A stretch of DNA of 33,541 nucleotides from an uncultured Bacilli bacterium (GTDB lineage Bacteria > Bacillota_I > Bacilli_A > RF39 > UBA660), in contig CANQSQ010000012.1 of the NCBI GenBank assembly GCA_947626565.1, forward strand, positions 1 to 33,541. Reading direction: 5' to 3'. The position numbers were made by a program, and so were the translations under genes. Shown in pieces: positions 5,755-29,963 of the stretch. Numbering within the stretch: position 1 is the first letter of the stretch; every line of letters starts with the position of its first letter. The notes under the pieces are model-generated. The model saw nothing but the letters and a program-made list of their open reading frames with translations, did not search any database and had not been told where the DNA came from.

Positions 5755-5763
5755 GAGGTAATT

Positions 5764-7578
5764 ATGCGTTTTTTAAGATTCTTTAAAAATAAAATAATAG
5801 AATTTGTAGTATTTTATGCAACCATTGTTATTATGGTACTTTTAATGTCTCATTGGCAAATATTAAAAGAAATGCCTGAAATGCTTTTATCAGGAATATT
5901 AATTTCCTTTATCTTTTCTTTATTTGTAGAACTTCTACTTATTTCTCAAAAAAGAAAATGGGTTATCTTTCTTTTACCAATTTATTGCTTTTTAGCCTAT
6001 AAAATATTAGATAGTGGCTTTCAAATAATCTTTCAAAAGCAACTAACTTCCTTACAAGAAAACTTCTTCACTCCTTTTTGTGTAGCCTATAGCTTTATAC
6101 TATTAATAGAAGTTATTCTATTTGGAAACTATTTGTTTTTAAAAAATAAACATTTCGTCGAAGAAAAAGCCAATAGTCTAAAATTAGCCTGGTCTAAAAT
6201 ATACTATTCATTACCAGTTTTTAGTTTCCTATCTAATATAACTCTTATTTTTACCATTGCTACATCAATCGTAAGAACAGAATTAATTCCCGAAATGTAT
6301 ATTATCTGGGTTATTCTCCATTTTATAATAATATACTTTTCTAGTTTCATTGATTTACATAGCGTTGACTTAGAGAAAGTAGAAAATTATTTCCTATATA
6401 GTACTTTTCAATATGAATTAAATCCCTTTTCTAATTTTTATACAATAGCGCTTATAACGGAAAGAAACCGCTACAGTGGTAAGCAAAAATTGTCCCTTTC
6501 TCCTCATTTAAACTATGAAGATTACAACAGTGCTATTTTAGTAAATGAATTTTATAATAGAAAATCAATCATAGGGAAAAAGAAAAATAAGTACCATATT
6601 CTCTATTTAAAAAGTAAAAAACTTAATAAATATACCCAAAAAGAAAAAGAGGCTATTTTTAAAATATTAGCAGAAGACGAAAAAGTAGGAATTCAACCTA
6701 TTATCTATGATAACTATTCCAAAGAAAAAAATTTAAATGAATTAGGCAAAGAATTATCCTTAAAATATCCTTACTACCGAAAATATATTTTATTTGATTC
6801 ACTAAATGAAATTATAAAAGATGTATTAAAAAATAAAGACAACAACTATCTTTTGGCGATAAGAGACCAAGTAAAAAAAATAATAGAAATGATTTCTTCC
6901 TACCAAAAAGAAGATACTATAAATAATTTAAAAGAAGAATTATATGATACCAAAAATGATTTGAAGTTATTTTATACAGCCATTAAAATCTGTGAATTTA
7001 CATTTTTTATAAGATGTTTAAGAGAAAATAAAGAAAAAATTTTAGATTTTGAAAAACCTTCTATCGGACAATACGTTCAACATATAGAAGATAATACAAT
7101 ATATCAAAAAGATAAGTATAAAGATTTAATTCAAAGCGCTATTTACCTAGATAAATCAGCAGTAAGAAATAATAAATCCGAACTAAAACAAAATCAAATT
7201 AGTTATAAAAAATTATGTGAAGTAATCTGCAAAGTAAGGAATCGTTACATTGGTCATGGTAGTATGATTTATTCTGTTTCATCAGAATTTGTCTATCATA
7301 TATTAATTGTTACAGAACAAATTATAAAAAGATATTATGAAACTTACACAGAACTAGAAAATATTGAAGTTTCTTTAAAAGAGTATAAGCCTCCTTTATA
7401 TATTGAATATAATGCTGCCAGATACTATTATAGTTCTCAACTAGAAAAAGATTACTTTCGCTACTTAGAGTATGAAAGTGGTAAAATTATAACTTATAAA
7501 TTATCCGAAAATAAAATCATAACCTCAATTACATTAGCAAGTGAATTTTACTTAGATAAAAGAAAAGGAGATGTGTAA
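5764..7578 (+). CDS. Six-TM membrane protein with HEPN-like RNx4HG motif (cassette gene B)
   Basis: Second cassette gene, 604 residues, not a family I can name. The first 200 residues hold about six membrane segments (near 11-28, 40-60, 66-82, 103-125, 150-170 and 176-196). About 400 residues of charged, mostly helical sequence follow and are probably cytoplasmic. Near the C-terminus, R492-N-R-Y-I-G-H498-G fits the Rx4-6H motif of HEPN ribonucleases and sits between two predicted helices, as in that fold. I infer a membrane-tethered HEPN-type effector or scaffold. It has an AGGAGGT site 9 bases after gene A, and its stop is followed one base later by the original start of gene C, so all three were translated together. 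Function is unproven. Confidence 0.7.
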   Translation: MRFLRFFKNKIIEFVVFYATIVIMVLLMSHWQILKEMPEMLLSGILISFIFSLFVELLLISQKRKWVIFLLPIYCFLAYKILDSGFQIIFQKQLTSLQENFFTPFCVAYSFILLIEVILFGNYLFLKNKHFVEEKANSLKLAWSKIYYSLPVFSFLSNITLIFTIATSIVRTELIPEMYIIWVILHFIIIYFSSFIDLHSVDLEKVENYFLYSTFQYELNPFSNFYTIALITERNRYSGKQKLSLSPHLNYEDYNSAILVNEFYNRKSIIGKKKNKYHILYLKSKKLNKYTQKEKEAIFKILAEDEKVGIQPIIYDNYSKEKNLNELGKELSLKYPYYRKYILFDSLNEIIKDVLKNKDNNYLLAIRDQVKKIIEMISSYQKEDTINNLKEELYDTKNDLKLFYTAIKICEFTFFIRCLRENKEKILDFEKPSIGQYVQHIEDNTIYQKDKYKDLIQSAIYLDKSAVRNNKSELKQNQISYKKLCEVICKVRNRYIGHGSMIYSVSSEFVYHILIVTEQIIKRYYETYTELENIEVSLKEYKPPLYIEYNAARYYYSSQLEKDYFRYLEYESGKIITYKLSENKIITSITLASEFYLDKRKGDV

Positions 7579-7579
7579 A

Positions 7580-7648
7580 ATGTCTGAAAAATTTTCTTCT
7601 TTCTCTTACAATATAATTCTTCATACCAATCTTTCTAAAATAAAATAA
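7580..7648 (+). pseudogene. Detached 5' end of cassette gene C (22 codons, then frameshift)
   Basis: An ATG at 7580 with a good AAAGGAGATG ribosome binding site, one base after gene B's stop, opens a frame of only 22 codons ending in TAA at 7646-7648. A second frame, shifted and open from 7639, continues without interruption into the 7768-8718 gene and reads as normal protein. Deleting five bases from the TAAAA repeat at 7636-7650 joins the two into one 377-residue protein. So the true start of gene C appears to be 7580, and the gene is currently out of frame. Confidence 0.75.
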
Positions 7649-7650
7649 AA
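7636..7650 (+). repeat. TAAAA x3 tandem repeat causing a frameshift
   Basis: Three exact copies of TAAAA lie at codons 19-24 of cassette gene C. With three copies the frame ends at a TAA inside the repeat; with two copies the whole gene is in frame. A unit of five bases changes the frame with each gain or loss, the arrangement used by phase-variable genes, although three copies is a short tract. Confidence 0.8.
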
Positions 7651-7767
7651 AATTCCCCGTTATTAAAAATTGTTAATTATGAAGAATTTATCAAAGAATT
7701 TGGTAAAGAAGAGTATAAAAAAAGATTATTAAATAATAGTGCTGACGATGATTATAAATTTTTATAT

Positions 7768-8718
7768 ATGAGGAAAACTAATGAAACCAATTTGGAAAAG
7801 TATATAGAATCTATTTTTGAAGAAATGAGTGACAATGGTGAATTAGTTTCCTATGGAGAAATTAAAATTGCCCTTATTCATGATGACTATACGAATTATC
7901 ACAGACCTAAAACAAAGTATAACTGGATACATAAAATTGATATTGCTCTTTTTAAAGATGAAGAAGAAGCTGTAAAATGGATAACCGATGGCCTAGACCA
8001 AAGTGCTATAAATATGGAATATTTTTTCTCTGATATTACCAAAACTGATTTTCTAGATTTTTATCCTGATGCTCATTCTTCTATATATGTCCAAGGCTTT
8101 TTTAGAAATGCTATGGTAGAAAAAGATCCTTTCCGAGCTATTATGTTAATGTATGATTTTATAGAGTTTATTCTTTATATTTACTACTATTATGGCAAAA
8201 AATGTACCAATGAAGAAGTTCATATGACCCATATAATGAGCTATGAAGATTTAGGTAAAGAAATCGAAAGATTATTTGAAAAGCATCCCATGAATTTTGA
8301 ATATTCCAAGTATGAAGTTCCTTTTGATTTAAAAAATGGTTTTAAGAAAATCAAAAAATATTTTGGATTAGAAATTACTGGTGACTACATCAACTTTTTG
8401 GGCTGTATTATGATACTACAGCAACTTAGAAATTGTACCAAAGGGCATGGTGTTATTATAGGAAAATCTGCTAAAGCTCTTCGTGAATTTTTAGTTCAAA
8501 GTATTATGTTTATCCTAGGACTTACCGAATTTAACCGTTTTGATATTATCATAAAAGAAGATAAAATTACATGTGGCTACCGCGATATCAAAATAGTAGA
8601 CATGGCTCCATACATTATTTTATGTGATAAACAACCTTATATTTTATATGAAGAGAAAAAAAGAAAAGAATATATTAACTATTTTGATGGAAAATATACA
8701 ATTCCTGAAATTCAATAA
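7768..8718 (+). CDS. HEPN-like protein, intact main frame (cassette gene C)
   Basis: This is the first ATG within the main body of cassette gene C, giving 316 residues. The coding frame is open back to 7639, and the ATG at 7768 has no ribosome binding site, so I think the real protein starts at 7580 and the reading frame is broken by the TAAAA repeat. The sequence is soluble and largely helical. R221-N-C-T-K-G-H227-G matches the HEPN Rx4-6H motif and echoes RNRYIGHG in gene B, although the two proteins are otherwise dissimilar to my eye. I do not recognise the family. By position and motif it is the third component of the cassette, possibly a HEPN RNase toxin. It ends before a hairpin terminator. 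Confidence 0.65.
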   Translation: MRKTNETNLEKYIESIFEEMSDNGELVSYGEIKIALIHDDYTNYHRPKTKYNWIHKIDIALFKDEEEAVKWITDGLDQSAINMEYFFSDITKTDFLDFYPDAHSSIYVQGFFRNAMVEKDPFRAIMLMYDFIEFILYIYYYYGKKCTNEEVHMTHIMSYEDLGKEIERLFEKHPMNFEYSKYEVPFDLKNGFKKIKKYFGLEITGDYINFLGCIMILQQLRNCTKGHGVIIGKSAKALREFLVQSIMFILGLTEFNRFDIIIKEDKITCGYRDIKIVDMAPYIILCDKQPYILYEEKKRKEYINYFDGKYTIPEIQ

Positions 8719-18359: not shown

Positions 18360-19364
18360 ATGATTAAAGTTGCAATTAATGGATTTGGTCGAATCGGAAG
18401 ATTAGCCTTTCGTTTAATGGAGGAAGATAGTAATTTTGAAATAGTTGCTATCAATGATTTAACTGATGCTGAACAATTAGCTTATTTACTAAAATATGAT
18501 ACAAATCATCGTAATTATCGTATTGATGAAATTACTTTTGATAATGATTATCTAGTTGTTGGCAATAAAAGAATTAAGGTATATGCTGAAAAAGATCCAG
18601 CTAATTTACCATGGGCTCAATTAGATGTAGATGTTGTCTTTGAATGTACTGGTTTATTTACATCAGATGAAAAAGCTATGGCTCATATTAATGCTGGAGC
18701 TAAGAAAGTAATTATTTCAGCTCCTGCTAAAGGTGATGTTAAAACAATTGTATATAATGTTAATGAACAAATTTTAACAGGTGATGAAAAAATCATTTCA
18801 GCTGCTAGCTGTACTACTAACTGCTTAGCTCCTGTTGTTGATGTATTAGATAAAGTATTTGGTATTAACAAAGGATATATGACTACTGTTCATGCTTATA
18901 CTAATGATCAAGCTACTTTAGATATTCCTCATAAAAAGGGAATAAAAGCTCGTCGTGGTAGAGCCTGTGCTGCTAATATTGTACCAGCTTCTACTGGAGC
19001 AGCTTCAGCTATTGGAAAAGTTTGCCCTAATCTTGAAGGAAAACTTGAAGGCGTAGCTATGCGTGTTCCTGTTCCTACTGGTTCTGTAGTTGACTTAGTT
19101 TTAGAATTAGGACGTCCAACTACTGTTGAAGAAATTAATAACGCCTTAAAAAATGCTCAAAATGAAACCCTTCAATATACTGAAGACCCAATTGTTTCTA
19201 GTGATGTCATTGGTAGACGTTGTGGTTCCTTAGTAGATGCTCTTTCAACCTCAGTATTAGACGTTAATGGTAGCCAATTAGTTAAAGTAGTTGCTTGGTA
19301 TGATAATGAGATGAGTTATACTGCTCAAATGGTAAGAACTGCTAAATATTTAATGACTAAATAA
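18360..19364 (+). CDS. gapA: Glyceraldehyde-3-phosphate dehydrogenase (NAD, glycolytic type)
   Basis: The enzyme oxidises and phosphorylates glyceraldehyde-3-phosphate to 1,3-bisphosphoglycerate in the cytoplasm. The 334 residues match the family length. Visible features are the NAD-binding loop NGFGRIGR (7-14), D33 in IND (favouring NAD over NADP), the active-site Cys C151 in AASCTTNCLAP, H178 in TTVHAYT, and the C-terminal SWYDNE-like motif (here AWYDNEMSY). The start has an AAGGAGG site. It has its own promoter and terminator, with pgk next under a separate promoter, so it is the head of a glycolytic block rather than of one long operon. Confidence 0.98.
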   Translation: MIKVAINGFGRIGRLAFRLMEEDSNFEIVAINDLTDAEQLAYLLKYDTNHRNYRIDEITFDNDYLVVGNKRIKVYAEKDPANLPWAQLDVDVVFECTGLFTSDEKAMAHINAGAKKVIISAPAKGDVKTIVYNVNEQILTGDEKIISAASCTTNCLAPVVDVLDKVFGINKGYMTTVHAYTNDQATLDIPHKKGIKARRGRACAANIVPASTGAASAIGKVCPNLEGKLEGVAMRVPVPTGSVVDLVLELGRPTTVEEINNALKNAQNETLQYTEDPIVSSDVIGRRCGSLVDALSTSVLDVNGSQLVKVVAWYDNEMSYTAQMVRTAKYLMTK

Positions 19365-19377
19365 AATTAAGAAGTGT

Positions 19378-19405
19378 AAAAAAAGGACTAATTCCTTTTT
19401 TTTTT
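19378..19405 (+). terminator. Terminator after gapA
   Basis: AAAAAAAGGA pairs with TCCTTTTTTT over 10 bp around a 5-base loop and is followed by more T. It partly overlaps the region used by the pgk promoter. Confidence 0.8.
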
Positions 19406-19415
19406 CGTTTTTCAA

Positions 19416-19424
19416 TGCTATAAT
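19416..19424 (+). promoter_or_regulatory. Extended -10 promoter of pgk
   Basis: TGCTATAAT is a perfect extended -10, about 64 bases before the pgk ATG. The -35 position falls in the T-run of the gapA terminator, so there is no consensus -35. Confidence 0.6.
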
Positions 19425-19487
19425 GAAATTAAGACAAGAGAATATATCCCCAAAATTAAGAATTTAAAAAGAAAAGAAAGGAATTTT

Positions 19488-20666
19488 ATGAAAAAGATAA
19501 CTGATTTAGATATTGAAAATAAAAAAACTTTAATAAGATGTGACTTTAATGTACCTATCAAAGATGGTCAAATAGTAGATGACACTAGAATAGTAGGTGC
19601 CCTAAAGACAATTAATTATTGTCTTGAACATAACGCTAAAATTATTCTTTTATCGCACTTAGGTCGTATAAAAGAAGAAGCTGATTTAGCTAAAAATAAT
19701 TTAGCTCCCGTTGCTAAAAGATTAAGTGAATTATTAAATAGAGAAGTTCACTTCATTAATGCTACTCGTGGACCTGAATTAGAAAATGCTATAAATAATA
19801 TGCAACCTCAAGACATCATTTTGATGCAAAACACTAGATATGAAGACTTAGATGGTAAAAAAGAAAGTTCTAATGACCCTGAACTAGGTAAATATTGGGC
19901 TTCTTTAGGTGATGTTTATATTAATGATGCCTTTGGTACTATTCATCGAGCTCATGCTTCTAATGTTGGTATTGCTTCCAACCTTGTTGGCAAATCTGCT
20001 TTTGGTTTCCTAATTGAAAAAGAATTAACTGCTTTAAGTATTTTAGATAATCCTGAACGTCCTTTTATCGTTGTACTAGGTGGTGCCAAAGTAGCTGATA
20101 AAATTGGTGTAATAGAAAATCTTGTAACTAAAGCTGATAAGATTTTAATCGGTGGTGGAATGGCTTTCACTTTCTTAAAAGCTCAAGGTTTTAATATTGG
20201 CTCTTCTCTTTTAGATGCTGAAAATATTGCTTTTTGTACCAAAATATTAAATGACTATGCTGATAAAATTGTGTTACCAGTTGATGTTGCTGTAAGTAAT
20301 ACCTTTACCAATGATGAAAATTATCGCACTAAAGATATTACAATGCTATCTAATGATGAAATGGGCTTAGACATTGGTCCTAAAACTCTTGACCTATTTG
20401 AAAGTCATCTAAAAACAGCAGCTTCTGTTATTTGGAATGGTCCTTTAGGTGTTTATGAGTTTGATAAATATAAAGAAAATACCAATAAATTACTTCAATT
20501 TGTTGTTGACAATAATATCAAAACTATCCTAGGTGGTGGTGATATCGTCGCAGCTGCCTCAACCGCTAATTTAAAAGATAAAGTTTACCATGCCTCAACT
20601 GGTGGTGGAGCTACTTTAGAATATTTAGAAGGAAAGAAATTACCAGGAATAGAAGCTATAAAGTAG
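19488..20666 (+). CDS. pgk: Phosphoglycerate kinase
   Basis: Pgk transfers phosphate from 1,3-bisphosphoglycerate to ADP. The 392-residue protein has the N-terminal substrate-binding motif RCDFNVPIKDG (18-28), the basic-patch segment with SHLGR and RAHAS, the hinge region GGAKVADKI, and the C-terminal nucleotide-binding motif GGGDIVAA with STGGGATLEYLEGK. All expected parts are present and the length is normal. The ribosome binding site is GAAAGGAA. A GNAT-like gene begins 10 bases after the stop and is likely cotranscribed. Confidence 0.98.
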   Translation: MKKITDLDIENKKTLIRCDFNVPIKDGQIVDDTRIVGALKTINYCLEHNAKIILLSHLGRIKEEADLAKNNLAPVAKRLSELLNREVHFINATRGPELENAINNMQPQDIILMQNTRYEDLDGKKESSNDPELGKYWASLGDVYINDAFGTIHRAHASNVGIASNLVGKSAFGFLIEKELTALSILDNPERPFIVVLGGAKVADKIGVIENLVTKADKILIGGGMAFTFLKAQGFNIGSSLLDAENIAFCTKILNDYADKIVLPVDVAVSNTFTNDENYRTKDITMLSNDEMGLDIGPKTLDLFESHLKTAASVIWNGPLGVYEFDKYKENTNKLLQFVVDNNIKTILGGGDIVAAASTANLKDKVYHASTGGGATLEYLEGKKLPGIEAIK

Positions 20667-20675
20667 GTGGGATAA

Positions 20676-21179
20676 TTGAGTACTGAAAAGTTTTTTATAG
20701 CCGATCCTTTTAATGATGAACATTTAGCTTTATATACTAAATATGACGCAGATCATGGCATTAATACCAAAAGTACAGCTTACATGTTAGAATTAAGAAA
20801 ACAAACAACCAAAGCTGAATATGAAACTCTATCTAAAAAAAATAATGAGTTTACCCAAAGCCTTTTTCTTCAAGATGGTTCTAAAATAAAAGATTCTTGC
20901 TACATAAAAGGTGAAAAAGATATCAAAACTTGTAACATTACTTTTGTTCCTGTTACGTTTAAAACGAAAAATCGTCGCCTTTTGTCTCTCGCAACCGATT
21001 ATGCCTTTAATGTATTAGGTATGGAAGAAGTCTTTGTTTCCATTTCCCCTAATGATAATCATTTGGAAGAAAATTTAGCTTTAAATGGTTTTGAAAATAT
21101 TGGTGAACTAAATGGTTATAAAACTTATCTCAAAGAAAAAGAACTTGAAAGACAAGAAATTTTAGTTCCCAATCTATAA
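20676..21179 (+). CDS. GNAT-like N-acetyltransferase-fold protein
   Basis: A 167-residue protein that starts with TTG at 20676, supported by the AGGTGG site 5 bases upstream and the short distance from pgk. The C-terminal half has the shape of a GNAT fold: basic RRLLSLATDYAF at the acetyl-CoA pyrophosphate loop (about residues 100-111), then VFVSISPNDNHLEENLALNGFENIG, in which an Asn, a helix and a GF turn are typical of motif B. The classic Q/RxxGxG/A loop is not seen, so acetyltransferase activity is uncertain. A terminator follows it. I cannot name the substrate. Confidence 0.6.
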   Translation: MSTEKFFIADPFNDEHLALYTKYDADHGINTKSTAYMLELRKQTTKAEYETLSKKNNEFTQSLFLQDGSKIKDSCYIKGEKDIKTCNITFVPVTFKTKNRRLLSLATDYAFNVLGMEEVFVSISPNDNHLEENLALNGFENIGELNGYKTYLKEKELERQEILVPNL

Positions 21180-21217
21180 AAAATTTTCATAGATTTTTAA
21201 CATCAATGAAAATTTTT
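21179..21217 (+). terminator. AT-rich terminator before the glycosyltransferase
   Basis: AAAAATTTTCAT pairs perfectly with ATGAAAATTTTT over 12 bp with a 15-base loop, followed by a T-rich tail. It ends two bases after the GNAT stop and just before the next ribosome binding site, so it may act as a partial terminator or attenuator inside the cluster. I saw no separate promoter after it. Confidence 0.55.
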
Positions 21218-21235
21218 ATTTTAAGGAGGAATAAT

Positions 21236-22456
21236 ATGCGTATAGGTATTTTTACAGAAACATATACACCCTACATCAGTGGTCTAGTTACTAGTGAAGT
21301 TATGCTGAAAAAAGCCCTAGAAAAATTAGGTCATGAAGTTTATGTCGTAACGGCTAATCTGCAAAGTTTCAAATACGAATATGATGAGAAAAATCGTGTA
21401 TTTCGTATTCCCGGTGTCCCTACTGGTATTTATGACTCTAGACTAACTAGTGTATATCCCATAAAAGCCATAAAGACCATTAAAAGTTGGCACTTAGACG
21501 TTATTCATTCTCAAACGGAATTTGCCATTGGAACTTTTGCGAGAATTTTAGCTAAACAATACAATATACCTTTAGTTCATACTTATCACACCATGTATGA
21601 AGACTACATTCACTATATTACCAAACACTCTAGTAAAAAATTAGTAGAATATTTTACGAAGTTTTATTGTGAAACTACTGCCACTGAATTAATTGTTCCT
21701 ACTACTAAAACTTATAAATTATTTAAAAATAAATATAATTTTGAAAAGAATATTCATATTATTCCTACAGGTTTAGAAGTCGAACGTTTCTTTACAGAAA
21801 ACATTAAATTAAAAGATGTTCTCGACTTAAAAAAATCTCTTAATATCTCTAAAAAAGATTTTGTCATTCTTTTTGTAGGTCGCCTTGCTGAAGAAAAAAA
21901 TGTTGAATTTTTAATAAAAGCTCAAGCTACTTTAGTCCATCAAAATAAAAATATTAAACTTTTAATAGTAGGGGATGGACCAGATAAAGAAAAATATGAA
22001 AACTACGCTAAAAAATTAGGTATAGAAAAAAATTGTCTATTTACCGGCAAAGCTGCTTGGGAAGAAATGCCCTATTACTATCATGTTGCCAATCTTTTCG
22101 CTACAGCCTCTAAAACGGAAACTCAAGGCCTAACTATTATTGAAGCCATGGCTTCCAGCGTTGTACCATTATGTATTAAAGATGAAGCTTTTGAAAGTAT
22201 GGTAACTGATGAATTAAATGGTTTATTTTTTACCACCGAGACAGAATATATTCAAAAAGTTAATGACTTAATAAAAGATAAAAATAAATTAACTAAACTA
22301 AATAATCAAGCCCGTATCCAATCTGAACAATATAGCTCTAATTTCTATGCTGAAAGAGTTCTAGAAGTATATAAAAGAGCTATTAAAACTAAAAAATCTG
22401 AGAATCGTTTTGGTCTAATATCTAAAATTGCCAAACAAATAAAAGGAGAAAAATAA
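21236..22456 (+). CDS. GT4-family glycosyltransferase (probable diacylglycerol glucosyltransferase)
   Basis: A 406-residue GT-B retaining glycosyltransferase. Seen in the sequence: the N-terminal IGIFTETYTPYISGLVTS, which recalls monoglucosyl-diacylglycerol synthases; HTYHTMYEDY near residue 110; FVGRLAEEKN near residue 214; the C-terminal E-x7-E motif in TETQGLTIIEAMAS. There is no signal peptide, so it is likely a peripheral enzyme on the inner face of the membrane making glycolipid. The acceptor is inferred from resemblance only. The frame extends ten codons upstream of the chosen ATG, but AAGGAGG lies right before ATG 21236 and the upstream part overlaps a hairpin. tpiA begins immediately after the stop. 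Confidence 0.82.
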   Translation: MRIGIFTETYTPYISGLVTSEVMLKKALEKLGHEVYVVTANLQSFKYEYDEKNRVFRIPGVPTGIYDSRLTSVYPIKAIKTIKSWHLDVIHSQTEFAIGTFARILAKQYNIPLVHTYHTMYEDYIHYITKHSSKKLVEYFTKFYCETTATELIVPTTKTYKLFKNKYNFEKNIHIIPTGLEVERFFTENIKLKDVLDLKKSLNISKKDFVILFVGRLAEEKNVEFLIKAQATLVHQNKNIKLLIVGDGPDKEKYENYAKKLGIEKNCLFTGKAAWEEMPYYYHVANLFATASKTETQGLTIIEAMASSVVPLCIKDEAFESMVTDELNGLFFTTETEYIQKVNDLIKDKNKLTKLNNQARIQSEQYSSNFYAERVLEVYKRAIKTKKSENRFGLISKIAKQIKGEK

Positions 22457-23158
22457 ATGATTATCGCATTAAATAACAAATGTAATTTAACAAAAGACAC
22501 CTTTCTAGCTTATCAAGAAGACTTGGCTAAAATAACTACTACTGATCACTTAATTCTATGTCCTAGTTTTACTAATCTGGCTTTATTTAATTTAACTAAT
22601 GTTTCCTTAGGTGCTCAAAATACAAGTATTGATGACCAAGGAGCTCATACTGGTGAAATTGCTGCCCAGCAATTAGCTTCTTTTACCGTTAAATATTGCA
22701 TTGTCGGTCATAGTGAAAGAAGAACTACGCAACATGAAACTAATGAAGATATTGCTGCTAAAATAAGTCAATTATTTAAAAATGATATTACTCCCATTCT
22801 TTGTGTGGGAGAATCTTTAGAGCAACGTCAAAATAAATCTTACCCTGAAATTATTAAGACTGAAATTATTGAAGCTACTAAGTCTTTAACACCTCCTGAA
22901 AAAGAACGTCTTATTATTGCTTATGAACCTATTTGGTCTATTGGTACTGGCTTAATTCCTCAAAATAGTGAAATTATGGAAGTATTAACCATCATTAAAA
23001 ATATTCTTCCTCAAAGTAAAATACTTTATGGAGGTAGTGCTAACGATGAAAATATAGATACCTTAAAAGAATGTCCTTTAATTGATGGTTATTTATTAGG
23101 TGGCTTAAGTCTAAAAATAGACAATCTCCAAAAATTTTTAAAAAAATTGACACATTAG
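22457..23158 (+). CDS. tpiA: Triosephosphate isomerase
   Basis: TpiA interconverts dihydroxyacetone phosphate and glyceraldehyde-3-phosphate. Catalytic residues are present: N6 and K8 (in place of the usual GNWKMN stretch the protein has LNNKCN), H85 in IVGHSERR, and E157 in AYEPIWSIGTG, plus the phosphate-binding YGGS near residue 193. At 233 residues it is about 15-20 shorter than most bacterial enzymes, with the deletions mainly in the N-terminal third. It directly abuts the glycosyltransferase gene, with an AAAGGAG site inside that gene's end. A terminator follows. Confidence 0.95.
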   Translation: MIIALNNKCNLTKDTFLAYQEDLAKITTTDHLILCPSFTNLALFNLTNVSLGAQNTSIDDQGAHTGEIAAQQLASFTVKYCIVGHSERRTTQHETNEDIAAKISQLFKNDITPILCVGESLEQRQNKSYPEIIKTEIIEATKSLTPPEKERLIIAYEPIWSIGTGLIPQNSEIMEVLTIIKNILPQSKILYGGSANDENIDTLKECPLIDGYLLGGLSLKIDNLQKFLKKLTH

Positions 23159-23187
23159 ACACTTTCGACAAAAGTTGTCTTTTTTTA
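23157..23187 (+). terminator. Terminator after tpiA
   Basis: GACACTTT (23158-23165) and AAAGTTGTC (23171-23179) pair with one bulged base and are followed by eight T. The loop contains the Spo0A-box sequence described separately. Confidence 0.75.
23163..23172 (-). promoter_or_regulatory. Spo0A box (0A box) upstream of spo0A
   Basis: On the minus strand this reads TTTGTCGAAA, which contains the known 0A-box core TGTCGAA. It lies 20 bases before the -35 of the spo0A promoter, so Spo0A could regulate its own gene. It also forms part of the tpiA terminator, which is an alternative reason for the sequence. Confidence 0.5.
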
Positions 23188-23191
23188 CTCT

Positions 23192-23219
23192 TTGAAATTA
23201 TTAAAACATAGTATATAAT
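23192..23219 (+). promoter_or_regulatory. Promoter of spo0A
   Basis: TTGAAA (23192-23197), a 16-base spacer and a perfect TATAAT (23214-23219), 35 bases before the ATG. Confidence 0.65.
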
Positions 23220-23253
23220 TATACTTGCGTGGTAATAATTGAGAGGAGAGAAA

Positions 23254-24030
23254 ATGGAAAAGACAAAAGTTTTAATTATTGATGACAACAAGAATTTAAT
23301 CATGATGATAAAGGAGTATTTTAAATCTAATCCTAATATAAAAATCACCTTAGAAGCTAATGATGGTAATGAAGGTATTAGGTTAATAGAGAAAAAACAA
23401 GATGAGTATGATTTAATTTTATTAGATTTAATTATGCCAGGTAAAGATGGTGTAAGCATCTTAGAATATATGAATGAAAATAAAATTGATAAGAAAGTTA
23501 TTGTTCTTACTTCTTATAATACCCAAGATATCATAAGAAGAGTAGCTGAAATGGGTGTTAACTACTTTATGTTAAAACCTTTTGAGCTATCTGATTTAGA
23601 AAATAAAATTAATACTGTTATGACAGGCACTGTCTATGGTGGCGAATCAATTGATTTATTCCATAACAATTTGCAAATATCAATAACTAAAACTCTACAT
23701 GAGTTAGGAGTACCATCCCACATCAAAGGTTATCAATACATAAGAGAAGGCATCACCTTAGTATATCAAAATCCTGAAATTGTCGGTGGTATCACAAAGG
23801 AGTTATATCCGGAAATTGCTAAAAAATTTAATACTACAGTATCACGCGTAGAACGAGCTATAAGACATGCGATTGAAGTTAGTTGGAATCGTGGCAACTG
23901 GCAATTGATGGAAGATATTTTTGGACACAGTGTTGATATAGATAAAGCAAAACCAACTAATTCGGAATTTATTGTAACTATTGCCGATAAATTAAGATTA
24001 GAATACAACAAGCCGTTGTTATCGGTATAA
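23254..24030 (+). CDS. spo0A: Spo0A, sporulation master response regulator
   Basis: Spo0A is the phosphorelay response regulator that commits Firmicutes to sporulation. The 258-residue product has an N-terminal receiver domain (about 1-120) with D10 and D11, phospho-acceptor D58 in [10 protein letters not shown], a switch Thr in VLTSY and the conserved Lys in MLKPF. The C-terminal Spo0A DNA-binding domain follows from about residue 155, with [16 protein letters not shown] and the recognition-helix region [18 protein letters not shown]. The frame extends five codons upstream from a TTG, but GAGAGGAG fits the ATG at 23254. It is monocistronic between two terminators. The sequence shows a complete protein, although whether the organism still sporulates cannot be judged here. 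Confidence 0.96.
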
Positions 24031-24052
24031 AGACTCCAAGGAGTCTTTTTTT
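24029..24052 (+). terminator. Terminator after spo0A
   Basis: AAAGACTC and GAGTCTTT form a perfect 8-bp stem with the tetraloop CAAG, then a T run. The spo0A stop codon overlaps its base. Confidence 0.9.
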
Positions 24053-24064
24053 AGTCCCAACTTC

Positions 24065-24093
24065 TTGACTTCTAACCCAAAAAAAACTATACT
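24065..24093 (+). promoter_or_regulatory. Promoter of the AAA ATPase gene
   Basis: TTGACT (24065-24070), a 17-base spacer and TATACT (24088-24093), 34 bases before the ATG. Confidence 0.7.
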
Positions 24094-24126
24094 TAATGTA
24101 TAAAATATGTTAGGAGGATACAGTTT

Positions 24127-25404
24127 ATGGAACGTAAGATAGAAATATTTTTACAAAAATGGCAAAAAGACATCATCCGCAAACCTTTGATAATTTACGG
24201 TGCCAAACAAATAGGAAAAACCTTTACTGTTTTATCCTATGGCAAAAAAGAATATAAAAATATTGTTTACTTCAACACTGAAAATAATAGCTTTTTAGAT
24301 GAGTTATTTACCAAAGAAAAATCTACTGAAAAAATTATTCTTAACTTATCACTACAAGCTGGCGAAACTATTCTTAAAGAAGACACTTTAATAATATTAG
24401 ATAATTTAGTAAATAATAATATTGTAAAAGGTTTAAAACTATTCGGTAGTGAACATAGTAAATATCATATTATTGGTATAACTTCTAGAAAAGAAAAATT
24501 ATCTGAATTTAAAGGTGAAGAATTACAATTTAAAAGTATGTATGAAATGGATTTTGAAGAATATTTATGGGCTCACGATGAAAAATCATTAGCTGAATTA
24601 ATTAAAGAATCGTTTACTAAACATAAAACTAATCCTTTCCATAAAGTAGCCCTAGATCAATTTCAAGAATACCTAATAACAGGCGGTCTACCAGAAGTTG
24701 TATTAGCTAATCTTGAAGGCAAAAGCTTTTATGAAATAGATGCTATTAAACAAAAAATTCTTGATATATATAAAAAGGAAATTGCTAATAATAAAAACTT
24801 AATTGATATTCCTCGTGGTATTGAAGTATTAGAATCTATTCCTAGTCAGTTATTAAAAGATAATAAAAAATTTCAATATGGTCAAATGGGTTCAGGCAAA
24901 AGAGCTAAAGAATATGAAAGTACTATTAACTATCTAGTACTTAATCAACTTGCTTATCGTAGTTTTAAAGTCAAAACAATTAAGTCACCTCTTAGTAGTT
25001 GTCGTGAAAAAGATAGTTTTAAACTATATATTCCTGACGATGGTTTATTATTTTCAATGCTACATTTAAATTACAAACAACTTATAAGTGATGAAAAAAT
25101 AAAAGAAACTCTATATGAAAATCATATTGCTAAAACCTTAGTAGAATCTGAATTTGCACTTTATTATTATCAATCAGATGGTAAAGCTGAAGTTAATTTT
25201 GTTGTTCAAAATAGAATGGGTCAGATTATACCACTAGAGATAGCAACCAAGTCTATGTCTAAAGCTAAATCATTATCTGTATTTATGAAAAAATTTACTG
25301 TTACACAAGCTTATCGTATTACCGAGAATAATTTTGCTACTAAAAAAGATGTAAGATACATTCCAATATATGCTATCTTTTGTTTAAATGAAACTAAATA
25401 TTAA
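24127..25404 (+). CDS. AAA ATPase of the AAA_14/DUF4143 type
   Basis: A 425-residue protein with the layout of the AAA_14 plus DUF4143 family, often found as orphan ATPases with unknown targets. The Walker A motif GAKQIGKT is near residue 25. The Walker B strand reads LIILDN, so the usual DE is DN. The sensor region ends in TSRKE. The C-terminal domain contains AEVNFVVQ...IPLEIATK (about 353-375), corresponding to the D...ExK core of this family's nuclease-like domain, with a Glu in place of the Asp. It has its own promoter and a good TAGGAGG site; gpmI follows after 25 bases and may be cotranscribed. The role is unknown. Confidence 0.8.
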   Translation: MERKIEIFLQKWQKDIIRKPLIIYGAKQIGKTFTVLSYGKKEYKNIVYFNTENNSFLDELFTKEKSTEKIILNLSLQAGETILKEDTLIILDNLVNNNIVKGLKLFGSEHSKYHIIGITSRKEKLSEFKGEELQFKSMYEMDFEEYLWAHDEKSLAELIKESFTKHKTNPFHKVALDQFQEYLITGGLPEVVLANLEGKSFYEIDAIKQKILDIYKKEIANNKNLIDIPRGIEVLESIPSQLLKDNKKFQYGQMGSGKRAKEYESTINYLVLNQLAYRSFKVKTIKSPLSSCREKDSFKLYIPDDGLLFSMLHLNYKQLISDEKIKETLYENHIAKTLVESEFALYYYQSDGKAEVNFVVQNRMGQIIPLEIATKSMSKAKSLSVFMKKFTVTQAYRITENNFATKKDVRYIPIYAIFCLNETKY

Positions 25405-25429
25405 AAATAAATTTGAAAGGACTGTAAAT

Positions 25430-26941
25430 ATGAAAGAAACAAAACACCCCTTAATTCTTACTATATTAGATGGCTATGGCTTAAGAGAAAATCCTCATGG
25501 TAATGCCGTCAAATTAGCTAATAATAAAGTATTTAATAAATTATGGACCGAATATCCTCATGCTACCTTAATAGCTTCTGGTGAAGAAGTAGGACTTCCA
25601 GCCGGACAAATGGGTAATAGTGAAGTAGGTCATATGAATATTGGCGCTGGTCGTACAGTTTATCAACCTCTTGAGTTAATTAACAAAGCCATTAAAGATA
25701 AAAGTATTCTTGAAAATAAAGAAATTTTAAAAGTAATTAATCATGCTAAAGAAAATAATTCTAAACTACATATTATGGGTTTAATCAGTGATGGTGGCGT
25801 TCATTCGCACATTAACCATTTAATGGCTCTTTTAAGTATGTGTAAACTACATAAGGTTTCTAAACTTTATCTCCATCTATTTACTGATGGACGCGACACC
25901 TTGCCAACTAGTTCTTATTCCTATATATCTAAAGTTGAAGATAAACTTCAAGAATTAGACCTTGGCTCTATCGCCACAATTAGTGGTCGTTATTATGCCA
26001 TGGACCGTGACAACAACTATGACCGTCTTCAAAAAGCCTATGATGCTATTGTTTATAATAAAGGACCTAAAGCTAACTCTATCAAAGATTTTATTGAAGA
26101 TAGTTATAAACAAAATATTACTGATGAATTCTTAATCCCAACTATCTTTGATGAAACTGGTAATCTAGAGGAAAATGATGGTATAATTGTCTTTAACTTT
26201 CGTAAAGATCGTTTGCGTGAATTATTTACCGCTATAACCAATAAAGACTTTACCGATATGCCTGTTACCAGATTTAATAATGTAAAAGTTGTTACTATGT
26301 TACCCGTTGTTAAAACAGTCTTAGCTGCTCATGCTTTTGAAGATCCTTCGCTTTCTAATATTTTAGGAGAATACCTTGCTAAGAACAACTTATCACAACT
26401 TCGCATAGCTGAAACCGAAAAATATGCTCATGTTACCTTTTTCTTTGATGGTGGTAAAGAAATAGATTATCCTCGTGAAAAGAAAATTCTGATTCCTTCT
26501 CCTAAAGTAGCAACTTACGATTTAAAACCCGAAATGAGTGCTATCGAAGTAACTGATACTTTACTAGAAGAACTTCCTAATTTTGATGTTGTTATCTTAA
26601 ATTTTGCTAATGGTGATATGTTAGGTCATACCGGTGTTTTAGAAGCTGCTATTAAAGGTGTTGAAGTTGTAGATTCCTGCCTAGAAAGAATTTATGAAAA
26701 AATTGAACAATTACAAGGAACTATGGTTATAATTGCCGACCATGGTAATTGTGAAGAAATGCTTGATGACGACGACAATGTTTTAACATCTCACACCACC
26801 AACTTAGTACCTGTCATTATTACGAGAAAGAATTTAACTTTACGCGACGGTAAACTAGGGGATGTAGCTCCTACCATATTAGACCTTTTAAATCTAAAAA
26901 AACCACCAGAAATGACTGGTGAATCAATCATAAAAAAATAA
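25430..26941 (+). CDS. gpmI: 2,3-bisphosphoglycerate-independent phosphoglycerate mutase
   Basis: GpmI converts 3-phosphoglycerate to 2-phosphoglycerate using two metal ions (Mn) and a phosphoserine intermediate. The 503-residue protein shows the first metal ligand D14 in ILDGYG, the nucleophile S64 in QMGNSEVGHMNIGAGR, the DGRDT motif, and the metal-binding NGDMLGHTG and ADHGNCEEM segments near the C-terminus. The frame runs 14 codons further upstream into the AAA gene, but the AAAGGA site and the family start place the ATG at 25430. It closes the glycolytic block; enolase is not in this window. Confidence 0.97.
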   Translation: MKETKHPLILTILDGYGLRENPHGNAVKLANNKVFNKLWTEYPHATLIASGEEVGLPAGQMGNSEVGHMNIGAGRTVYQPLELINKAIKDKSILENKEILKVINHAKENNSKLHIMGLISDGGVHSHINHLMALLSMCKLHKVSKLYLHLFTDGRDTLPTSSYSYISKVEDKLQELDLGSIATISGRYYAMDRDNNYDRLQKAYDAIVYNKGPKANSIKDFIEDSYKQNITDEFLIPTIFDETGNLEENDGIIVFNFRKDRLRELFTAITNKDFTDMPVTRFNNVKVVTMLPVVKTVLAAHAFEDPSLSNILGEYLAKNNLSQLRIAETEKYAHVTFFFDGGKEIDYPREKKILIPSPKVATYDLKPEMSAIEVTDTLLEELPNFDVVILNFANGDMLGHTGVLEAAIKGVEVVDSCLERIYEKIEQLQGTMVIIADHGNCEEMLDDDDNVLTSHTTNLVPVIITRKNLTLRDGKLGDVAPTILDLLNLKKPPEMTGESIIKK

Positions 26942-27400: not shown

Positions 27401-28630
27401 TTGTCAGAAAGAATTATATTTCACGTTGACGTTAATAATGCCTTCCTTTCTTGGACCGCTGTTTACTTACTTAAAAAGGGCTATCAAATAGATATTCGTA
27501 CCATTCCCTCAATTATTGGTGGTGATGAATCTCTTCGTCATGGTATTGTTCTTGCTAAATCACCTGTAGCGAAAAAATTAGGTATAAAAACGGCTGAAAC
27601 TATTTATCAAGCTAAAAAGAAATGTCCTACCTTAAAAATCTATCCTGCTAACTATGAATGGTATTATCAAAAATCTAATGAACTTTATGAATATCTAAAA
27701 ACTTATACTCCTGTCATCGAACGTTTTTCTATTGATGAATGTTTTCTAGACATGACTGGAACTAATTATCTATATCATGATTATTTAGAACTTGCCTCTA
27801 AAATAAAAGATGATATAAAAACGAACTTTGGTTACACTGTCAATGTAGGTATTGGCAACAATAAACTATGTGCTAAAATGGCTTCTGACTTTGAAAAGCC
27901 TGACAAGGTTCATACTCTCTTTAAAGATGAAATTGCCTCTAAATTATGGCCCCTTGACGTAGGTGATTTATTTATGTGTGGCAAAAAGACTAAGGAAGTA
28001 CTAAATAAACTAAACATTTTTACCATAAAAGATTTAGCTCATGCCAATGACAAAGTACTTGAAAAAAATTTCAAAAATCAGGCCATCTATTTAAAAAATG
28101 CTGCTCTTGGACTTGATGATTCTAAAGTTGGACCTAAAACTAGTAAAAATAGTAGTATAAGTATTTCTGAAACCTTATCTTATGACTACACAGATGAAGA
28201 AAAAATAAAAGAAGTTCTCTTTCGTCAAACCCAAGAAATAACCAGACAATTACGAAAACAAAAACTTTATACTAAGACAATTGCTATTACTTATAAGAAT
28301 AATCAATTCATATCCTATTCTGCTCAAATGCCCCTACCAAATCCTACTAATAACACTAAAGAAATTTACGAATTAGTTTTAGCTATTTTTGCTAAAAGTT
28401 ACAAAAAAGATCCTCTTCGTCTCATTGGCATCAGGCTAGCAGATTTAAAAGCTAGTAAAGAAACACAAATATCTTTATTTGATGAAGACTCCTCTTTACA
28501 AAAAGAAAATAATACTGAAGAATTTCAAAAAACTATTGATACCATCAACGAAAAGTTTGGTAAATCATTAATTGCTCCTGCCTCTTTAAAAATAATAGGA
28601 GAATCTAAAACTAAAAATAAATATAAATAA
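27401..28630 (+). CDS. dinB: Y-family DNA polymerase (DNA polymerase IV type)
   Basis: A translesion DNA polymerase. The 409-residue protein has the catalytic HVDVNNAF motif (D10, likely steric-gate F15), the palm motif SIDECFLD (D112, E113), the little-finger domain from about residue 245, and a C-terminal beta-clamp-binding motif QISLF (356-360). The start is TTG at 27401 after GAGGTGA, with no better ATG nearby; the protein then begins SERIIFHVDV, as the family does. It may be DinB or a close UvrX/YqjW-type paralogue; DinB is the safer name. It is divergent from a small XRE regulator that may control it. Confidence 0.9.
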   Translation: MSERIIFHVDVNNAFLSWTAVYLLKKGYQIDIRTIPSIIGGDESLRHGIVLAKSPVAKKLGIKTAETIYQAKKKCPTLKIYPANYEWYYQKSNELYEYLKTYTPVIERFSIDECFLDMTGTNYLYHDYLELASKIKDDIKTNFGYTVNVGIGNNKLCAKMASDFEKPDKVHTLFKDEIASKLWPLDVGDLFMCGKKTKEVLNKLNIFTIKDLAHANDKVLEKNFKNQAIYLKNAALGLDDSKVGPKTSKNSSISISETLSYDYTDEEKIKEVLFRQTQEITRQLRKQKLYTKTIAITYKNNQFISYSAQMPLPNPTNNTKEIYELVLAIFAKSYKKDPLRLIGIRLADLKASKETQISLFDEDSSLQKENNTEEFQKTIDTINEKFGKSLIAPASLKIIGESKTKNKYK

Positions 28631-28728
28631 AAGACTAATAATTGACTAGTACTGCTTCTTTTTCTACCTAAAATGTCAAATTAAATTAGTTTTTTTCTTT
28701 TATTTAAAAAAAATCTTCAAAAAAACAC

Positions 28729-28758
28729 TTGCAAAACGTTGATATACCATGCTATAAT
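28729..28758 (+). promoter_or_regulatory. Promoter of the S10 ribosomal operon
   Basis: TTGCAA (28729-28734), an 18-base spacer ending in TGC, then a perfect TATAAT (28753-28758). The start would be near 28765, giving a leader of about 120 bases. Confidence 0.8.
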
Positions 28759-28764
28759 TAGATA

Positions 28765-28883
28765 CGTGTGACTGCTTAGATGTGCAAGGTTGTCGATACG
28801 CCAGGTTAAGTTGTTAATTTGCTATCGGGTTATTTGCACGGAGCAAGTCTATACTAGATATAGGCGAAGGGAGGATTTAAAAC
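28765..28883 (+). ncRNA. Structured 5' leader of the S10 operon
   Basis: The leader is much richer in G and C than its surroundings and folds well. GACTGCT (28770-28776) pairs with AGCAAGTC (28842-28849) with one bulge. Inside, TGTGCAA (28781-28787) pairs with TTGCACG (28834-28840), and CGATA (28794-28798) with TATCG (28823-28827). Separately, 28847-28853 pairs with 28859-28865 (stem around CTATA/TATAG) just before the AAGGGAGG ribosome binding site, sharing bases 28847-28849 with the outer stem. It looks like a ribosomal-protein leader with two exclusive states; the protein ligand is not known to me. Confidence 0.55.
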
Positions 28884-29195
28884 ATGGCAACAGAAAAGAT
28901 TCGTATCAGAATTAAAGCATATGATCACAGAATTCTAGATAATGCTGCTACTAAGATAGTTGAAACTGTTAAAAGATCTGGTGGACAAATCTCAGGTCCT
29001 GTACCACTTCCAACAGAAATTGAAAAATTTACTATTCTAAGAGCTGTACACAAATATAAGGATTCTCGTGAGCAATTCGAAATGCGTACACACAAAAGAC
29101 TTATTGATGTCAAAAATCCTAGCAAGGAAACTATTGATGCATTAGCTCATTTAGATTTACCAAGCGGAGTAGAAATTGAAATCAAAACAAAATAA
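28884..29195 (+). CDS. rpsJ: 30S ribosomal protein S10
   Basis: S10 of the small subunit, which also acts as NusE in transcription antitermination. The 103-residue length is standard. The family motifs [28 protein letters not shown] and [15 protein letters not shown] are all present. It is the first gene of the S10 operon, with an AAGGGAGG site and a long structured leader in front. rplC follows 15 bases after its stop. Confidence 0.99.
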
Positions 29196-29210
29196 TAGGA
29201 GGAAAAAGTA

Positions 29211-29963
29211 ATGAAAGGAATCTTAGGTAAAAAAATCGGAATGACTCAAGTATTTACTACTAATGGTAAATTAATTCCGGTTACTGTTATTGAAGTAGAG
29301 CCAAACGTTGTTACTCAAATCAAAACAGTAGAAAAAGATGGTTATGATGCTATTCAACTTGCTACAGAAACAATTAGAGAAAAAGCTAGCAACAAACCAA
29401 AAATGGGTCATACAAATAAAGCTAACACAACACCTAAGCGCTTCTTAAGAGAGATTAGAGGAGTAAACGTTAACGATTACACTTTAGGTCAAACAGTTAG
29501 CGTAGACATATTTGAAGCAGGGGAAATTGTTGATGTTACAGGAACTTCTAAAGGTAAAGGGTTCCAAGGCGTTATTAAACGTCATAATCAATCAACTGGT
29601 CCTATGGGACACGGTTCACAATACCATAGAGGTGTTGGATCACTAGGTACTATGTTACCAATGCACGTATTAAAAGGTAAAAAGATGCCTGGTCAAATGG
29701 GTAATGTTCAAAGAACAGTTCAAAATCTAGAAATAATTTCTGTAGATACTGAAAATAATGTCATTTTAGTAAAAGGTAATGTACCTGGAGCTAAGAAATC
29801 ATTAGTTATGATTCGCACTGCTGTTAAAAAACCAGATGCTAAGAATGACCAAGCTGAATTAATCACCTATGTTCAAGAAGCACCTGAAACAGCTGAAGAA
29901 CAACCAGTTGAAGAAACTGAAGAAAATAATGCTGAAGTAACTGAAGAACAAGCAGCTGAATAA
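29211..29963 (+). CDS. rplC: 50S ribosomal protein L3 with an acidic C-terminal extension
   Basis: L3 is an early assembly protein of the large subunit that reaches the peptidyl transferase centre. The core is clear: [47 protein letters not shown] and KMPGQMG. The protein is 250 residues, whereas L3 is usually about 205-215. The extra 35-40 residues form a low-complexity acidic tail rich in Glu, Ala, Thr, Pro and Val. The frame and codon use are continuous, so the tail is real and not a frameshift. A hairpin (29966-30007) separates it from rplD. Confidence 0.98.

Follow-up and report, generated by a model that had tools for sequence, protein, structure and literature searches.

The interval between a dinB-like gene (27401-28630) and rpsJ, which starts at 28884, raises the question of what kind of leader precedes the S10 cluster in this genome and whether this leader acts as a switch. 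The window, i.e. the whole stretch of 33,541 nt that was analyzed (contig CANQSQ010000012.1 of an uncultured Bacilli bacterium; all coordinates refer to it), had been described in a first-pass annotation as carrying an S10-operon leader with two competing folds that could not be placed in any known leader family.

Locus and transcription start

The gene rpsJ (uS10) is the first gene of the S10 cluster and was located at 28884-29195 on the + strand by ORF reading and by rpsJ homologues found with tblastn. It is followed up to the contig end by rplC, rplD, rplW, rplB, rpsS, rplV, rpsC and rplP, all named from their ORFs. A Shine-Dalgarno (SD) sequence GGGAGG was read from the sequence at 28869-28874 (+).

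A promoter (TTGCAA, 18 nt, TGC-TATAAT; 28729-28758, + strand) was predicted by a consensus scan, which gave 2 promoter-like sites in the region compared to 3.1 expected in shuffles. Among the 66 distinct leaders of the window's order group there are 53 in which the -10 element ends 17-19 nt 5' of the end of the conserved GC of the proposed kink-turn described below. This spacing points to a probable transcript start at about G28766, within the 5' arm of the outer stem. Within 28500-29250 no terminator-like site was found. Attenuation by an intrinsic terminator is therefore not suggested and control of translation is favoured; a terminator-based switch was rejected on the same ground.

Elsewhere in the window, a full Spo0A-type sporulation regulator is encoded at 23239-24030 on the + strand (Response_reg and Spo0A_C, E 1.6e-41); the genome is a 1.3 Mb draft. 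Four genes of glycolysis, gap, pgk, tpi and gpmI (named from ORFs), are scattered along one stretch from 18360 to 26941 (+). Between them lie a short ORF without assignment, an ORF resembling glycosyltransferases, the Spo0A gene and a gene for an AAA_14/DUF4143 ATPase, the latter two assigned by Pfam matches. Between uvrB and uvrA, three successive ORFs of 669, 604 and 316 aa (3745-8718, +), none of them above the Pfam cut-off, look like an inserted accessory block.

Family membership of the leader

At its gathering threshold, Rfam gave no match in the window. Below the threshold the leader matched RF03136, the S10-Clostridia ribosomal protein leader, with 34.2 versus the required 35.1 bits (E 3e-5). 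The match falls 0.9 bits short, runs from end to end of the model (1-81 on 28769-28867, no truncation), includes both conserved helices and lies directly upstream of rpsJ. With this match, and with close relatives as well as Bacillus passing the cut-off, the statement that the leader could not be matched to a known family was not upheld, and the label of an unclassified leader was dropped. The first-pass annotation had itself named a match to a described leader family as what would speak against novelty, and RF03136 is such a family, so the claim of novelty fails. According to Eckert and Weinberg 2020 (PMC7247131), where Clostridia examples were added, the Firmicutes S10 leader is attributed to Yao et al. 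2007.

In the window's order, RF03136 was found in 129 of 193 genomes at E 0.001, with 61 of the 193 at or above the cut-off, which B. subtilis passes too. Samples of the phylum and the class gave matches in 121/392 and 110/296 genomes, respectively. The leader is the only copy found in its genome, with B. subtilis and L. lactis positive as controls.

A model (R1) was built from 33 leaders, including that of the window and those of several order members. It found the leader in 186 of the 193 genomes that make up the sample of the window's order and scored the window, as a member of the training set, with 110.1 bits; 44 leaders outside the training set reached 41 to 109 bits. As this one model, built from the window's leader together with above-threshold members of RF03136, finds the window and leaders outside its training set, the two are taken as homologous. 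The seven remaining order genomes (G061, G069, G072, G095, G103, G110 and G154) had neither the leader nor a detectable rpsJ; the search for rpsJ/S10 in these genomes, run without a positive control, found nothing. Both are probably missing due to assembly gaps.

The element precedes rpsJ across Bacilli. All 140 leaders with sufficient downstream sequence were followed by an S10 motif; about 80 of them had been found via rpsJ, and only the rest are independent. The window's leader thus belongs to RF03136, the S10 leader family of Firmicutes, as a slightly divergent member that scores below the threshold. The reading of its layout as that of a ribosomal-protein leader held up, based on this match, on its place ahead of rpsJ, shared by every relative examined, and on the covariation of three helices (P1b, P2 and P4) presented below.

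Folding of the leader

The predicted transcript 28766-28886 folded with -32.5 kcal/mol (z -2.5), and 1 of 200 dinucleotide shuffles was as good. For the longer stretch 28740-28900 the result was weaker (z -1.48, 16/200 shuffles as good). The arms of an outer stem, GACUGCU (28770-28776) and AGCAAGUC (28842-28849), can pair, and a hairpin of 7 pairs (GUCUAUA-CUAGA-UAUAGGC, 28847-28865) uses the same bases GUC 28847-28849. Both competing folds are therefore present exactly where the first-pass annotation had placed them. Enforcing the hairpin in 28766-28886 gave -31.6 kcal/mol, i.e. the alternatives are approximately 1 kcal/mol apart. Additionally, GUGU 28766-28769 can pair with AUAC 28851-28854, so the competition is wider than claimed and most of the 5' arm of the hairpin can be taken.

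We divided the outer stem into two parts. The 5' strand of P1a (GUGUGAC, 28766-28772, +), derived from the MFE fold, can pair with 28847-28854 and then clashes with the hairpin, here named P4 (28847-28865, +), which lies beside the ribosome binding site, shares its 5' arm with P1a and was assessed by folding and pairing counts. P1b consists of UGC (28773-28775, +) and GCA (28843-28845, +) and, other than P1a, does not overlap P4. While the outer arms can pair largely as proposed, the last pair, U28776-A28842, is better read as a part of a kink-turn: on the sequence, the pairs G28779.A28842 and A28780.G28841 are preferred there over Watson-Crick pairing.

The bulged strand of this putative kink-turn (28776-28781, +) comprises UUA (L1-L3), GA and U (3b) and was delimited by conservation among leaders, and the non-bulged strand (28840-28842, +) comprises G (3n), G and A according to the leader alignment. 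P2 is formed by GUGCAA (28782-28787, +) and UUGCAC (28834-28839, +) and was defined by covariation. Between its strands lie the P2/P3 internal loop with a conserved GGUUG and P3 with a variable tip (28788-28833, +), as seen in two leader alignments.

Comparative support for the helices

For the comparison 202 leaders were collected: that of the window, 80 found via rpsJ with tblastn, 61 via RF03136 searches and 60 from genomes of many families. L142 was dropped as its anchor was not found, leaving 201 leaders, of which 188 were distinct; L024, L111, L168, L169, L170 and L200 were anchored by hand. Lineage groups (window's order, Bacillales, other Bacilli) were assigned from record descriptions and not from a taxonomy. 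A GAG in the 3' strand and a GGTT in the 5' strand served as anchors of the alignment, so the conservation of these motifs is not independent evidence; this includes the conserved GGTTG at the start of the P2/P3 internal loop, whose GGTT is the anchor.

P2 had the strongest covariation of the element, with five of its six pairs changed on both sides. In 177 of the 188 leaders P4 reached at least -2 kcal/mol; 97.2% of its cells were paired, and it was supported by covariation as well. It most often ended 3 nt before the SD sequence (116/188). The SD sequence was at least half paired in just 9 of the 188 leaders, so sequestration of the SD by P4 was rejected as a general mechanism.

The 5' strand of P1b is drawn unpaired in RF03136. 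Among all column pairs between the two outer strands (A and B), A14-B3 of P1b was the best by corrected mutual information, ranking below the P2 pairs. All six standard pair types were present at this position (UA 89, AU 13, UG 9, GU 6, GC 6, CG 6; 59 unpaired). When strands were swapped between leaders, the native P1b combinations were better than the swapped ones in 75 clusters (z -6.6, 0/2000 swaps as good), with the same outcome at each clustering; a reversed-strand control, carried out on whole strands, gave 523/2000. On the core tree, 10 of 14 co-substitutions at A14-B3 were pair-to-pair compared to 3.7 expected, the highest count of 208 pairs, and at A15-B2 it was 5 of 5 compared to 0.29 expected. 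Taken by itself, P1b was better than shuffles in an alignment of 31 order leaders (11/500 as good for cells paired, 6/500 for the covariation score).

P1b is short. Three contiguous pairs were possible in 101, two in 51 and one in 36 of the 188 leaders, and in Bacillales there was no swap signal for it. With P1b included in the model, 32 of the 44 held-out leaders scored higher and 12 lower. Taken as a comparative result, P1b is a well-supported short helix and a new structural addition to the family model.

One could object that the strands were kept for promoter function and ribosome binding and that the outer stem is accidental. P1a is indeed located right at the predicted transcript start and had no covariation in the window's order. 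However, the covariation and co-substitution in P1b and the covariation in P2 and P4 argue against a chance origin, and we regard this explanation as quite improbable.

A proposed kink-turn between P1b and P2

According to PMC5061560, a standard kink-turn joins two helices by way of a bulge of 3 nt, after which come a G.A and an A.G pair. The leader has this order in its sequence, with P1b as the C-stem and P2 as the NC-stem. Its 5' side between the two helices reads NNN-GA, where G and A were found in 188 of 188 distinct leaders and L1-L3 were variable. The 3' side reads G-GA; 3n is a G in 162/188 leaders, and the GA is part of the anchor, so that its invariance is not independent. The 3b.3n pair was U.G in 83 and A.G in 77 of the 188 leaders; the window has U.G. 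A published rule states that kink-turns with 3n = G or 3b = C fold upon addition of ions (PMC4382518). By this rule, the G at 3n in 162/188 leaders would allow folding in metal ions. There is thus a strong sequence case that the S10 leader carries a kink-turn which is absent from the RF03136 model.

The literature searched, which lay outside Yao 2007, Weinberg 2017, Deiorio-Haggar 2013 and Irnov 2010, contained no report of a kink-turn in the S10 leader or of its control by uL24.

Competition between P1a and P4

The mutually exclusive pairing of P1a and P4 is real for this sequence. As a description of the window's order it stood only in part: P1b, P2 and P4 covaried, while P1a was paired in 91.2% of cells with no covariation beyond shuffles (128/500 as good). 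Within the outer stem, covariation in the order thus backs P1b at its base and no more, a part that has no clash with P4, and the proposed layout of a switch is supported by exclusive pairing on paper, without covariation of P1a.

We considered a strict two-state switch, in which the ligand closes the whole of P1 (P1a and P1b) and destroys P4, which would serve as the expression platform. The energies are compatible with it, since the two folds are about 1 kcal/mol apart in the window and within 2 kcal/mol in 48 of 66 order leaders (median -0.4 kcal/mol). There was also support from strand swaps in Bacillales: when the 5' strand was swapped against the P4 arm, 1/2000 combinations was as good without clustering and 8 and 9/2000 at clustering levels of 0.85 and 0.80, respectively. 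Covarying examples of P1a are AUGAAC/GUUCAU in Thermoactinomycetaceae and AUGGAC/GUCCGU in Aneurinibacillus. On the other hand, in Bacillales P4 was favoured by a median of 4.0 kcal/mol, and in most leaders P4 leaves the SD uncovered. In the same test the window's order was indistinguishable from swaps (242 and 539/2000), where P1a has no covariation either, and the other Bacilli had no swap signal with the P4 arm (1324 to 1657/2000).

In the latter group P1a is often replaced by a local 5' hairpin (P0), which also speaks against the strict switch. Tested family-wide, P0 was better than shuffles mainly in other Bacilli (34/66) and was for this reason rejected as a family-wide feature. Leaders in which a local hairpin directly 5' of the kink-turn strand replaces P1a include L113-L128, L144-L146 and L153-L159, i.e. 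many of those that belong neither to Bacillales nor to the window's order.

In two families, represented by L183 (74-198) and L147, the SD itself is a possible pairing partner of the strand that in other leaders makes up P4. In L183, GUCCU can pair with AGGAC of the SD according to the fold. Such pairing would amount to direct sequestration of the SD and is in favour of a two-state switch for these leaders. Taken together, a strict two-state switch appears rather doubtful to us, whereas a switch in some lineages, not family-wide, is plausible.

Proposed mechanism

Our proposal starts from what comparison gives, namely the family match, the position, the pairing of P1b, P2 and P4 and the kink-turn signature, and extends from there to binding, repression, the level of control and the ligand. 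We consider it likely, with a probability of roughly 70%, that the leader is the operator for feedback repression of the S10-spc mRNA by a protein of the cluster, acting via the domain of P1b, kink-turn, P2 and P3. A ribosomal protein of the cluster in excess over rRNA would bind this domain, and initiation of translation would then be lowered at rpsJ, the ribosome site of which follows directly.

In leaders like that of the window, an extension of P1 into the 5' arm of P4 costs almost no energy. P4 therefore probably competes with the closing of the outer stem of the kink-turn. Where P1a invades P4, P4 would raise the protein level that is needed to close P1 and in this way probably set the threshold of the response, although not family-wide. 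Counting against the operator, P4 does not sequester the SD in the window's leader, P1b is weak or without swap signal in part of the family and lowers the model score of 12 of the 44 held-out leaders, and P1a has neither covariation in the window's order nor a swap signal in other Bacilli.

Candidate ligands

The usual partner of such a leader is a protein encoded in the operon that it precedes. The classical candidate is uL4, which controls the S10 operon of E. coli (PMC10931766) and whose gene rplD is the third gene of the cluster in the window. The kink-turn would then be mere architecture. Nothing in the present data points to uL4, and we see it as a serious possibility somewhat below even odds.

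The kink-turn itself suggests a ligand that holds a kink-turn in rRNA. Members of the YbxF/YlxQ type bind kink-turns in Bacillus, and B. subtilis, used as a control, has the corresponding domain PF01248. For the related L7Ae, kink-turn binding is described in PMC5061560. In the window's family, PF01248 was found in 0 of 7 genomes, all 7 of which carry the leader. This makes an L7Ae-family ligand unlikely in the window's order; it was dropped as a candidate there and is, in our estimate, extremely improbable.

In the ribosome, L24 binds to Kt-7 of 23S rRNA, where the 3b.3n pair is U.G in 92% of sequences (PMC5061560). The 23S rRNA of G001, a genome of the same family as the window, reads AUGC-UUU-GA-U / G-GA-GCA at Kt-7, and the window's leader reads CUGC-UUA-GA-U / G-GA-GCA. 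Both share the core GC-NNN-GA-U / G-GA-GC. In contrast, G001's own leader (L194, AGC/GCU) and its 23S have different third pairs in the C-stem. With the models R1 and R2, this 23S rRNA (L204) gave no match up to E 1. The likeness thus stops at the Kt-7 core, and the idea that the leader mimics 23S rRNA extensively was rejected. Another 23S region that the leader presumably might resemble lies around GUGAACCGUGAGGG.

The gene rplX (uL24) was present in 7 of 7 genomes, and in the 6 with the leader on the same contig it lay 5.7-5.9 kb downstream on the same strand. In the window's genome rplX is on another contig; the window's contig ends after rplP. This makes uL24 our boldest candidate for the ligand, and we name it as a candidate and not as a finding. 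The most far-reaching version would be that the S10 leader of Bacilli imitates Kt-7 with its kink-turn, that uL24, encoded about 6 kb downstream, is the feedback ligand of the S10-spc mRNA and that outer stem and P4 form a protein-controlled two-state switch in the window's order and in Bacillales. As a whole we hold this to be unlikely.

The S10 leader stands in front of one of the largest clusters of ribosomal genes, and the ligand of the Firmicutes S10 leader is not stated in the literature consulted. A kink-turn in this leader would restrict the choice of ligand to proteins known to hold such motifs in rRNA and offers a direct binding test with uL24 and uL4.

Comparison with known systems

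The leader is, judged by its sequence relatives, ordinary in kind; the addition of P1b to its structure is well supported and the case for the kink-turn is strong. With the E. coli S10 leader (uL4) it shares the operon and feedback by an encoded protein as the presumed principle; it differs in that the Rfam search of the window matched no leader family besides RF03136.

The leader of rplJL bound by uL10(L12)4 is a ribosomal-protein leader with a kink-turn, as proposed here. This kink-turn resembles the rRNA site of the protein, and competing folds are described for B. subtilis (PMC10931766). In B. subtilis this leader acts by transcription attenuation with an intrinsic terminator, whereas none was seen in the window's leader. 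A further structured 5' UTR of rpsJ is the motif RLC-47-1, which PMC11109978 reports from three genera of one family, the Peptostreptococcaceae; the likeness drawn here is by description only.

Closest is RF03136 itself, with which the window's leader shares the position before rpsJ, P2 and P3 and the hairpin proximal to the ribosome binding site. The model draws its 13 positions at the 5' end unpaired, while P1 and the bulged strand of the kink-turn would lie exactly there. An inclusion of the 5' helix in the Rfam model is therefore suggested: with the current cut-off, 61 of 193 order genomes are recovered, versus 186 of 193 with R1, which contains this strand and was trained partly on the window's order.
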